From Acidobacteriaceae bacterium (lineage in GTDB: Bacteria; Acidobacteriota; Terriglobia; Terriglobales; Acidobacteriaceae): 32,375 nucleotides of DNA. Below, in pieces: positions 3,473 through 29,079 of the stretch. Below the pieces are notes generated by a model. The model saw only the letters and a list, made by a program, of their open reading frames with translations. It ran no database searches and was not told where the DNA came from. Position numbers and translations under genes: made by a program. The stretch spans positions 1 to 32,375 of the forward strand of contig JANXZM010000116.1 of NCBI GenBank assembly GCA_025355505.1. Reading direction: 5' to 3'. Position 1 is the first letter of the stretch. Each line of letters opens with the position of its first letter.

Positions 3473-3551
3473 GTGGAGCGACGGGCGTATCGAGTATCCA
3501 GGGTGCGCCCGCAGCAGCATCGCGGCCGGGCGGGGACGCCCGGCTCTCCAC
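3473..3551. repeat. REP-like element, copy A
   Basis: The element begins GTGGAGCGACGGGCG and ends in the hairpin GCCGGGCGGGGACGCCCGGC (3525-3544; 8-bp stem, GGGA loop) plus CTCCAC. The terminal GTGGAG and CTCCAC are inverse complements. Relatives are at 5194, 21283 (inside recG), 22622, 29001 and 32271. Confidence 0.8.
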
Positions 3552-5193: not shown

Positions 5194-5248
5194 GTGGAGG
5201 GACAGGCATCGCCACGGTCCCGCCGGGCGGGGACGCCCGGCTCTCCAC
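5194..5248. repeat. REP-like element, copy B
   Basis: Starts GTGGAGGGAC, carries the same 20-base hairpin as copy A (5222-5241, GGGA loop), and ends in CTCCAC. It lies between the converging radical SAM and bamA genes. Confidence 0.8.
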
Positions 5249-20368: not shown

Positions 20369-22600
20369 TTACCCCACCTCCACCAGCCCATAACTGAGCG
20401 CCCAGCGCGAACGCATTTCTTTGAGGGCTCGATCCATCTCTGCTTTTGATATTTCGGGATTCGGCCCGGAGATCACAAACGCGGCCTCGCGTTTGGCGGC
20501 TTCCAGCAGTTGGCGATCGCGGATGATGTTGGCCACGCGGAAGCTCGGGATGCCCGCCTGCTTGGTCCCGAAAAATTCACCGGGGCCGCGCAGTTCGAGA
20601 TCAAGTTCCGCGATCTGGAAACCATCGTTGGAGCGCACCATCGCGTCGAGACGGCGTTCACCCTCTTCGGAAACTTTCCCACCGCGCATGAGCACACAGT
20701 AGGATTTCGCCGCGCCGCGGCCGATGCGACCGCGGAGCTGGTGGAGCTGCGCTAATCCGAAGCGGTCGGCGTGCTCGATCACCATGACGGTCGCGTTGGG
20801 AACGTCGACGCCGACTTCGATGACCGTCGTAGCGACAAGAATTTCGATCTTGCCCTGCTGAAATTCGCGCATGACATGCTCTTTTTCGCCGGCATCAAGA
20901 CGGCCATGCAGCAAGCCGACATGAAGGTTGGGGAAAATCTTTTCCCGCAACTGCCGGTGCATCTGCTCGGCGGCCTTCAGTTCGCGCTCTTCGTTTTCCT
21001 CGATCACCGGATAAACGACGTAGGCTTGATGTCCGGCGCCAATCTGCTTGCGGACGAAGTCCCAGACTTCGGGCGCGCGCTCGTCGGGCAGGGAGCGGGT
21101 GACAACCGGCGTGCGTCCCGGCGGAAGTTCGTCGAGCACCGAGAGGTCGAGATCGCCGTAGAGTGTGAGGGCAAGGGTGCGCGGGATGGGGGTGGCGGTC
21201 ATGACTAGAACGTCGGGCTCTGGAACTTTGCTTTCGGGGTGGCGTTGGGCGTCCGCGCGCGTCTGGACGCTGCGTTCCTCGGGCCGGGCGGGGACGCCCG
21301 GCGCTCCACGATCCTCCGTTTTTTTCATGAGCTTGAGGCGTTGCATGACTCCGAAGCGATGTTGCTCATCCACTACGACGAGGCCGAGATTTTCGAATTC
21401 GACGCCATCCTGAATCAGCGCGTGCGTCCCGATGACAAGTTGCGCGCTGCCTTGCTTGATGTGGCGGCGCACGTTGCGTTTGCGATCCTGTTCGAGTGAG
21501 CCGGTGAGGAGCACGATGCGGTATCCGGCTCGTTCGAGAATCTGGCGGGCGGAAAAATAATGTTGCTGCGCCAGAATTTCAGTCGGCGCCATCAACGCGA
21601 CCTGGTAGCCGTTTTCAATGGCAATGATCGCGGCCTGGAAGGCCACAATGGTTTTGCCCGATCCCACGTCGCCCTGCAGCAGCCGACGCATGGGGCAAGG
21701 CGTCTGCATGTCGGTGGCAATTTCTTTCAGCACTCGCTTCTGCGCAGCCGTTGGATGAAACGGGAGTATCTTCTTAATCGTCTCGCGAACGCCCTTGTTC
21801 AGCTGGAACGCGATTCCGGGTTGCGCCTTCTGCTCTTGGCGCTTCAGTTCCAGCCCCAGTTGGATGAAAAACAGTTCGTCGAAGATCATTCTTATGTGTG
21901 CCGGCGTGCGCGACGATTGCAGATCGGTAAAGCTTTCACCGGCATCCGGCCAGTGAACTTTCGATAACGCCTCGGGCAGAGACACGAGGCTGAGATGGGC
22001 GCGCACCGCAGCCGGAATTGGATCGGGAAGCTCGGGATTCAAATTGTCGAGCGTCCATCGGATAATGCGCCGGAACCAGCGCGGCGTGAGCTTGCCCTGG
22101 CCAGTCGATTCATAGATTGGAACAATCCTTCCAATCTCCAGCGAGGCCGCTGCTTTTTTTTCGGCCTCGTCGGCGCCGCCCTCTTCGTTGATGTCGCCGA
22201 GAATCTCGAATTGCGGCTGCATGATCTGCAGGTGGCCGTCGCGATCCTCTTCGACCTTGCCATAGAGGGCGACCATCTGTCCGGCCTGGAAACGGTCCTG
22301 AAGATACGCAGCGTTGAACCACAGGCACTTCAACTTTGTGCGCCCCTGTCCGACTGTGAGTTGAAAGATGGGCATGCGGCTTGTGCGAAACACTTCCGAG
22401 TTGCGGACTTCAGCTATCACCGTCGCCATTTCTCCGGCGCGCAGTTCGGCCACTGAACGCGGGTTCAGACGGTCTTCATAGCGGAAGGGCAGGTAGTGCA
22501 GCAGGTCGTCGACGGTCGCAAGGCCCTTGGCGCCAAGCACCTCGGCGAGGCGCGGGCCAATGCCTTTCACAAACTGCACTGGAGTGGAAGGTTCCAGCAT
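20369..22600 (-). CDS. recG: ATP-dependent DNA helicase RecG with an extra insert
   Basis: RecG remodels stalled forks and branched recombination intermediates. With the ATG at 22600 (MLEPSTPVQFVKGIGPRLAE) the product has 743 residues. An N-terminal HhH/wedge-OB region is followed by Walker A GDVGSGKTIVAF, LMAPTEILAQQHY, GTHALIQDGVEF, DEQHRFGVMQRLKLM, motif III TATPIPRTLAL, LLHGRLDAGEKEHVM, VATTVIEVGVDVPNATVM and QLRGRIGRG, all intact. Between DEQHRFGVMQRLKLMKK and PDVLVMTATPIPR about 34 residues are added (TEDRGAPGVPARPEERSVQT and following), where family members usually have a few. This insert is encoded by a REP-like element. The open frame to 22669 also derives from such an element, so I reject that start. 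Confidence 0.95.
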   Translation of the reverse strand: MLEPSTPVQFVKGIGPRLAEVLGAKGLATVDDLLHYLPFRYEDRLNPRSVAELRAGEMATVIAEVRNSEVFRTSRMPIFQLTVGQGRTKLKCLWFNAAYLQDRFQAGQMVALYGKVEEDRDGHLQIMQPQFEILGDINEEGGADEAEKKAAASLEIGRIVPIYESTGQGKLTPRWFRRIIRWTLDNLNPELPDPIPAAVRAHLSLVSLPEALSKVHWPDAGESFTDLQSSRTPAHIRMIFDELFFIQLGLELKRQEQKAQPGIAFQLNKGVRETIKKILPFHPTAAQKRVLKEIATDMQTPCPMRRLLQGDVGSGKTIVAFQAAIIAIENGYQVALMAPTEILAQQHYFSARQILERAGYRIVLLTGSLEQDRKRNVRRHIKQGSAQLVIGTHALIQDGVEFENLGLVVVDEQHRFGVMQRLKLMKKTEDRGAPGVPARPEERSVQTRADAQRHPESKVPEPDVLVMTATPIPRTLALTLYGDLDLSVLDELPPGRTPVVTRSLPDERAPEVWDFVRKQIGAGHQAYVVYPVIEENEERELKAAEQMHRQLREKIFPNLHVGLLHGRLDAGEKEHVMREFQQGKIEILVATTVIEVGVDVPNATVMVIEHADRFGLAQLHQLRGRIGRGAAKSYCVLMRGGKVSEEGERRLDAMVRSNDGFQIAELDLELRGPGEFFGTKQAGIPSFRVANIIRDRQLLEAAKREAAFVISGPNPEISKAEMDRALKEMRSRWALSYGLVEVG
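21218..21319 (-). repeat. REP-like element inside the recG reading frame, copy C
   Basis: Plus-strand 21283-21302 is the same 20-base hairpin (GCCGGGCGGGGACGCCCGGC) found in the spacers at 3525 and 5222, followed by GCTCCAC as at 29072. On the coding strand it begins GTGGAGCGCCGGGCGTCC and is read as RGAPGVPARP. The neighbouring GCGTCC/GGACGC pair (about 21250-21270) may be part of it. Confidence 0.85.
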
Positions 22601-22621
22601 GGTAAGCGATGTTAGCAGGCG

Positions 22622-22654
22622 CGCTGGAACGACGGGCGTCCTCGCCCGTCCACC
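22622..22654. repeat. REP-like element, copy D
   Basis: GACGGGCG-TCCT-CGCCCGTC (22631-22650), flanked by CTGGAAC and CAC, lies directly upstream of the recG start. It has the same 8-bp-stem, four-base-loop design as the other copies. Confidence 0.7.
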
Positions 22655-22734
22655 GCGCGCCTTGCCCACTGCCGCTTACCTATCAATTAAACTCATTTCG
22701 TCATGTTTAAACGTATTTTGCCTGCGCCCCTCCC

Positions 22735-29001: not shown

Positions 29002-29079
29002 TGGAGTGACGAGCGTCCTCGCCCGTCCTTCGCAAGGATCAGCGGCGTCGTGGCCGGGCGAGGACGCCCGGCGCTCCAC
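29001..29079. repeat. REP-like element, copy E
   Basis: Begins GTGGAGTGACGAGCGTCCTC and ends GCCGGGCGAGGACGCCCGGC plus GCTCCAC, a complete element with inverted ends and two inner palindromes. It fills the gap between the converging ispF and amidotransferase genes and includes the last base of ispF and the last base of the next gene's stop. Confidence 0.85.

Follow-up and report, generated by a model that had tools for sequence, protein, structure and literature searches.

How does a palindromic repeat come to lie, in frame, inside the conserved helicase gene recG? Mobile palindromes that are translated as part of proteins have been described in Rickettsia and, in scattered cases, in other bacteria. 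The window analyzed here, a stretch of 32,375 nucleotides, is contig C91 of a 4.16-Mb genome in 119 contigs (G000), and its recG gene contains a hairpin that also occurs elsewhere in the window. The first-pass annotation had presented recG as if it were a unique case. We found six further in-frame cases in this genome, and we compared the recG site with its counterparts in related genomes.

A palindromic repeat inside recG

The longest open reading frame of recG runs from 20369 to 22669 on the minus strand and begins with GTG at 22669. This start may be too far upstream, since translation from it, instead of from the ATG at 22600, would include the REP variant at 22631 to 22650 (Table 1). DEQH and TAT, which we take to be motifs II and III of the RecG helicase, were read intact, in agreement with the first-pass annotation. 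The product scored 749.5 bits against TIGR00643, the RecG equivalog, above the cutoff of 659.4. The parts of recG that flank the insert have dN/dS values of 0.052 to 0.086 against 12 relatives. They are under purifying selection, and the gene is intact. The closest named relatives by RecG are MAGs labeled Acidobacteriaceae or Terriglobia (all 23 named loci are MAG records); Candidatus Sulfotelmatobacter sp. RYN_10 is a 75% match.

Table 1. Coordinates of recG, its insert, and related repeats in the window
Feature	Position	Strand	Basis or remark
recG CDS, likely ATG start (MLEPSTPVQ...)	20369..22600	-	Start choice inferred; consensus of 18 RecG rows contains MLExSTPVQ
Helicase motif II (DEQH), intact	21359..21370	-	From P0001 residues 434-437
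Helicase motif III (TAT), intact	21191..21199	-	From P0001 residues 491-493
REPIN-like element in recG, translated from the minus strand	21238..21309	+	Compared with same-genus empty alleles
Intact REP arm, made up of hairpin GCCGGGCGGGGACGCCCGGC and tag GCTCCAC (21303-21309)	21283..21309	+	
Spacer between the two REP arms, 19 nt	21264..21282	+	
Degenerate inverted REP arm, weakly supported alone	21238..21263	+	
REP variant GACGGGCGAGGACGCCCGTC	22631..22650	-	Just upstream of the likely recG ATG; three mismatches to GCCGGGCGGGGACGCCCGGC
REP core, copy outside recG	3525..3544	+	Exact match
REP core, copy outside recG	5222..5241	+	Exact match
REP core, one mismatch, same GCTCCAC tag	29053..29072	+	

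The segment from DEQH to MTATP is 168 nt long here, compared with 93 nt in three genomes of the same genus (G005, G006, and G009). The net gain is therefore 75 nt, or 25 residues, which is fewer than the 34 or so residues first proposed. The peptide RGAPGVPARP is translated between DEQHRFGVMQRLKLMKK and PDVLVMTATPIPR, as had been read. The element is larger than the single hairpin first noted: it comprises the intact hairpin, GCTCCAC, a 19-nt spacer, and a degenerate inverted arm (Table 1). When the second, degenerate arm was considered alone, its score was equaled in 98 of 5,000 mononucleotide shuffles and in 42 of 2,467 other 65-nt stretches of the window. We also considered RNA structure as a special feature of the recG insert and dropped it: the 102-nt stretch showed no unusual RNA stability (z = -0.76; 42 of 200 shuffles were as good), and its fold is ordinary for its composition.

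The repeat is present in many copies. Within the window, GCCGGGCGGGGACGCCCGGC occurs exactly at 3525, 5222, and 21283, as had been claimed, with one mismatch at 29053 and with three at 22631 and 32278. The GCTCCAC flank is indeed common to the recG copy and the copy ending at 29072. When the window was shuffled 100 times, the mean number of matches was 0.02, and no shuffle reached 6. In the whole genome, the pattern GCCGGGCGRGGACGCCCGGC with up to two mismatches gave 128 matches (61 forward and 67 reverse), compared with one (0 + 1) for the reversed-pattern control in the same genome. We fetched 94 distinct cores of the 128, with about 100 places listed. Among the 93 cores with enough flank, a GTGGAG/CTCCAC-like tag lies beside the hairpin in 88, and an inverted partner arm lies within 90 nt in 52, versus 3 of 184 control segments. 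A frequent arrangement is GTGGAG-GACGGGCGTCTCGCCCGTC, a spacer, and GCCGGGCGGGGACGCCCGGC-GCTCCAC, which is a REPIN-like pair. All six frames of the 27-nt unit are free of stop codons.

High copy number in one genome and inverted pairs with a short spacer, by which REPs and REPINs are recognized, were thus both found. As is also typical of REPs, the cores lie mostly outside coding sequences: conserved proteins contain 7 of the 94 fetched cores in G000 and 1 of 41 fetched cores in G008, which carries 50 copies of the window family and in which RecG is the only clear coding case. These counts rest on a filter that could miss cores near locus or gene ends and on our judgment by eye that other core-spanning reading frames are spurious. 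The rejected frames (in L001, L018, L019, L026, L163, and others) were judged by eye to be antisense or spurious. Cores also occur in tandem in G000, with three in 100-bp steps at C93:17600-17819 (L130) and two, 162 bp apart and with similar flanks, at C15:22535-22716 (L005 and L006).

The RecG loop in related genomes

RecG gave a clear match in 60 of 61 genomes, the exception being G025 with only a weak helicase match (E value, 5e-34), and in all 24 genomes of the genus. Reading the loops by eye, we found a REP-type insert in 15 of the 24 (G000, G001, G003, G004, G008, and G010 to G019) and no insert in 5 (G005, G006, G009, G020, and G021). The loop is long with no recognized repeat in G002 and G022, an N gap followed by DARRST occupies it in G007, and the sequence of G023 stops before it. 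The pattern searches list matches at the recG site for at least G000, G008, G004, G015, G017, G003, G014, and G016. The contig of G004 ends inside the loop, and N's are found there in G007, G012, and G017; such breaks are expected from a multicopy repeat.

Outside the genus, the loop was read in 23 genomes. It measures 75 to 117 nt in 18 of them and 144 to 162 nt in G027, G028, G029, and G032, and G026 has a 100-N gap in it. The earlier statement that RecG normally has only a short linker is thus an oversimplification. By eye, only G032 among these four looks REP-like; G027, G028, and G029, together with the named relatives L079 to L081, have a loop of 141 to 162 nt with no recognized repeat. 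The RecG loop is intrinsically variable and tolerant, also beyond the genus. In a structure model of RecG, residues 450 to 485 are coil between a helix (443 to 449) and the motif III strand (486 to 491), and block means of pLDDT are 28 to 42 over residues 441 to 480. The model is poor (mean pLDDT, 63.2; pTM, 0.35; 18 sequences); it fits, and does not prove, that the insert region is a disordered loop.

These data bear on whether the insert is simply an old, freely varying loop with a chance palindrome or an artifact of assembly. The long loops without a recognized repeat, inside and outside the genus, and the assembly breaks in four genomes could be read in this way. However, the pattern had 128 matches against a single control match, the loop is 75 nt shorter in same-genus genomes, and repeats recur at the loop in many separately assembled genomes, including the public MAGs palsa_296 and SRVP_18. 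The genome counts and the same-genus empty alleles rule out a chance palindrome, and we consider this explanation as a whole extremely improbable. The first-pass annotation had itself raised an assembly error and a phylum-wide conserved loop. The former is unlikely given the recurrence of REP inserts, and with regard to the latter, REP-type long loops with families that are multicopy in the genus (15 of 24 genomes) and short loops (5 of 24) indicate that the palindrome did not arise by convergence within a conserved loop. In an exact-stem test, 5 of 14 long RecG linkers exceeded every control window of their own gene, G000 was equaled by 13 of 139 control windows, and G013, G022, G002, and G018 were unremarkable. 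The hairpins of G013 and G018 are eroded, with best stems of 4 and 6.

Different repeat families occupy this one site. The window family is found with a GACGGGC-type arm first in G008 and G018, and G011 has one such hairpin; G000 has the GCCGGGC arm first, which is probably the opposite order. The first arm is a GTGTGG- or ATGTGG-tagged hairpin of the ACGGGGC type in G015, G010, G004, and G012 and a GTGTGG-tagged GGGCGACTCGCCC hairpin in G001 and G019. In G019 a further repeat, CTTCGACTTCGCTCAGGGCAGG, is nested between the arms. The first hairpin is GTAG tagged in G003, G013, and G017 (CGTAG in G017), and G014 and G016 have a GACNGGTC hairpin followed by GCCGAGCGAAGCTCGGC.

We also counted these families in the genomes that carry them, with the recG copy included. 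The insert of G004 is an exact member of the ACGGGGCTNCGCCCCGTC family, which has 21 copies in that genome, and the inserts of G017 and G003 are exact members of the GTAG-REP family, with 10 and 8 copies, respectively. The recG composite of G014 and G016 is scarce in its own genomes (2 and 3 matches). Among the 24 genus genomes, the window-family pattern was matched in 20, the ACGGGGCTNCGCCCCGTC pattern in 21, the GTAG-REP pattern in 18, and the composite pattern in 8, with few copies.

Base pairing is kept while the letters change. In 11 hand-picked first-arm hairpins (G003, G013, G017, and the gapped G012 were excluded), standard pairs make up 97.7% of pair cells, and changes on both sides occur at 4 of 8 pairs. 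Of 500 shuffles, none reached the paired fraction, the covariation score, or the count of cells with two-sided changes; 7 reached the count of pairs with two-sided changes, and 78 reached that of further pair types. The peptide RVGTGLRPVQAERSS is shared by G014 and G016, whose codons for it show paired synonymous differences (ACG/CCC versus ACA/CCT), and the two other G016 matches share the ACAGGTC/GACCTGTC form of G016 recG (ACAGG...CCTGT). This pattern is consistent with an insert that was replaced by, or converted with, repeats of its own genome.

We placed these states on a tree of recG, priA, mutY, and dusB with the linkers removed. Presence or absence of the RecG insert requires 4 changes (15 with the insert and 5 without, the others left out), the first-arm family requires 9 in our four-state coding, and MutY occupancy requires 4 (G009 coded as having the insert and G006 as having none). 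With good support for only 7 of the 21 inner branches, these counts are rough.

If a single ancient insertion in the ancestor of the genus had been inherited vertically and altered only through point mutation and deletion, the present variety would be divergence and not turnover. The insert position is about equal in the genomes read, and presence or absence needs only the 4 changes. Furthermore, the distal arm is close to GCCGGGCGGGGACGCCCGGCGCTCCAC in G008, G018, G015, G010, and G001, and partially in G019, with differing proximal arms. This history is nevertheless hard to reconcile with the filling of the site by GTAG-type repeats in G003, G013, and G017, with arms that differ as paired units, and with the third repeat nested in G019. 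Moreover, G005, G006, and G009 have 93-nt loops that resemble one another and do not look like varied deletion scars, and the GCCGGGC arm is proximal in G000 and distal in G008 (the degenerate arm of G000 being weakly supported). We consider a single ancient insertion unlikely.

Instead, we find it likely that recG carries a nonautonomous, high-copy REP/REPIN-type repeat that is tolerated in a flexible RecG loop, which then takes up other repeats. According to this model, a repeat of this type (GTGGAG plus hairpin) would have landed in frame between motifs II and III. Its tolerance would be explained by the flexibility and variability of the loop, by a unit that is open in six frames, and by a net length divisible by three. 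A loop that already holds a palindrome would admit further repeats, which enter or replace it, so that related species would come to carry different families, half elements, and nested elements at one site. Re-insertion, ectopic gene conversion, and allele exchange are all candidate routes for the switching, and the insert is presumably neutral for RecG activity.

In-frame repeats in other proteins

The first-pass annotation had proposed a search for the repeat in other coding sequences. We found that 7 of the 94 cores in G000 are in frame in conserved proteins, namely, RecG, PriA, MutY, DusB, ParB, and two ABC transporters, and it was these seven that we put through the family search. MutY scored 282.3 bits, just under the cutoff of 286.5; the partial PriA scored 308.7 against a cutoff of 230.35; and both ABC proteins scored below the cutoffs of the named equivalogs among the matches listed.

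The linkers of PriA, DusB, MutY, and ParB are occupied in a similar way across the genus. By eye, PriA has hairpin or REP-arm inserts in 15 of 21 genomes (G000, G001, G003, G004, G007, G008, G010, G011, G013 to G016, and G018 to G020), a short linker in G005 and G006, and an ambiguous one in G002, G012, G021, and G022. DusB linkers from 18 genomes include 13 with inserts and 5 short ones, one of which belongs to a 62% homologue in G005. The DusB inserts of G006, G009, G010, and G023 contain a further palindromic family around GGGCACGACTTTAGTCGTGCC, several copies of which are chained in G006. This second family (GGGCACGACTTTAGTCGTGCC, with GGCTTTAGCCGCTGAGG) gives REGHDFSRAE- and ALAAEG-like peptides with the frame kept (L254, L252, L253, and L257), and in G006 and G009 it is accompanied by REP-like stretches. 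ParB has a GRAGTPVAPP-like insert in G000, G010, G018, and G019 and a variant of it in G011; in G008, G014, and G016 it has REP-like stretches of other kinds (all by eye). Several ParB linkers (L306, L312, L313, and L324) hold a GTTCTCAGTTC-type simple repeat (SSQFPVLSSQ or close), which is another source of in-frame linker growth in ParB. A CTTCGACTTCGCTCAGGGCAGG-like repeat (peptides LRLRSGQA and LRQAQS) lies within REP pairs or linkers at L045 (G019 recG), L192 (G001 priA), L017 (G000), and L281 (G008); at two of these four loci it is inside conserved coding sequence. In the exact-stem test, 13 of 21 PriA linkers and 11 of the 14 DusB linkers tested beat every control. The corresponding number for MutY was 2 of 23, and the MutY insert of G000 lacks a long perfect stem. 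Taken over all four proteins, the test gave mixed support.

The window family occurs in the MutY of G000, G001, G004, G010, G011, and G019. The MutY linker is short (45 to 51 nt) in 13 genomes and longer and ambiguous in G002, G006, G009, and G013. All six inserts share the flank AATAAC(A/G)ATGG although these genomes do not form one clade, which suggests shared ancestry or allele exchange at this locus. Loop segments of recG, priA, and mutY alleles might, by extension, have been swapped between species by homologous recombination, with families that differ by allele lineage. Allele exchange alone, however, leaves unexplained both the inserts that match frequent repeats of their own genome and the nested insertions, and we consider it a rather unlikely explanation for the whole pattern.

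Four of the seven proteins with in-frame REPs in G000 (RecG, PriA, MutY, and ParB) act in repair, replication restart, or segregation, which agrees with a published bias. An insert under selection, whose hairpin or peptide alters RecG activity or expression (for example, in mutators), would be consistent with such a tally. On the other hand, the inserted peptides vary between species, five members of the genus have no insert, the RNA fold is ordinary, the loop is predicted to be low-confidence coil, and the tally is small and post hoc. We therefore consider selection for the insert quite unlikely. We do not claim an enrichment in repair genes from this tally, which comes from one genome; the coding match in G008 is RecG alone.

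The reading of a tolerated REP/REPIN-type repeat can be extended from RecG to these proteins. The flexible linkers of housekeeping proteins, especially those of DNA metabolism, might be genus-wide docking sites where palindromic mobile repeats are exchanged as cassettes. The translated element would be overwritten in each genome by the repeat family current there, so that protein loops would evolve in concert with noncoding mobile DNA. We offer this extension tentatively, as a fair possibility that falls somewhat short of even chances.

Y1 transposases (PF01797) are present in 22 of the 24 genus genomes, with 8 matches in G000. We found no convincing REP of these families beside Y1 genes at 18 loci (8 in this genome and 10 in relatives, some cut by contig ends, out of many more). 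Four loose matches to the GTAG pattern beside Y1 genes in L113 and L115 were unlike the family on reading. We thus do not tie the REPs to a particular transposase. By analogy with RAYT systems, a transposase of the Y1/RAYT type may mobilize them in trans.

Relation to known translated repeats

REPINs, associated with RAYT transposases (PMC3116915 and PMC8049555), are two REPs in inverted orientation at high copy number. Inverted high-copy pairs and Y1 genes are present here as well, and no physical link between a REP and a Y1 gene was seen among the loci examined.

The first-pass annotation had likened the insert to the protein-coding palindromes of Rickettsia, and the comparison is apt as an analogy. 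Several families of Rickettsia palindromic elements lie in frame in housekeeping proteins, with lengths of 105 to 146 bp or about 150 bp, according to the reviews PMC10969869 and PMC2229807. In-frame presence in conserved proteins is also found here (seven proteins). In contrast, our units are 20 to 30 bp, with pairs of about 60 to 100 bp, in genomes of 2.9 to 6.1 Mb, and the GC-rich unit is open in six frames. The likeness would be one of action and not of membership.

The closest precedent is PMC3733652 (BMC Genomics, 2013). In the passages considered here, GTAG- and CGTC-tagged REPs, often paired, are described inside open reading frames of several species and as translated. Many of the host genes function in replication or repair (UvrABC, UvrD, RecBCD, PolI, and DnaE2 are named), flexible linkers are proposed as tolerated sites, different REPs are reported near one recB site in two Xanthomonas species, and it is speculated that REP-tagged repair genes may produce mutators. 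In-frame REPs in repair genes were thus already known from that study and from Rickettsia. Among the open-license papers listed by our searches, none reports REPs in RecG or translated REPs in Acidobacteriota, and the supplementary list of PMC3733652 may include RecG cases.

Our repeats share with those of PMC3733652, as those passages present them, that they are short, often paired palindromes translated in conserved proteins, many of them proteins of DNA replication and repair. The window family differs in its tag, which is GTGGAG-like and not GTAG or CGTC; GTAG does occur as the tag of a further family found in these loops. RecG, PriA, MutY, DusB, and ParB are not among the proteins named in those passages. 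About two dozen related genomes, and several proteins in them, offer the same loop with an insert, without one, with half an element, with nested elements, or with another family. With such a range of states, the route by which repeats enter genes, their neutrality, and any preference for repair genes become testable. It also calls for caution, because fast-evolving loops of bacterial proteins can be mobile DNA and assemblies can break there. Relative to the scattered cases in those passages, the present ones come from one genus in which different families occupy the same loops of several proteins, together with nested elements and empty alleles. The host group and the proteins are new; the chief novelty is a record, across a whole genus, of fixed loops occupied by different repeats.
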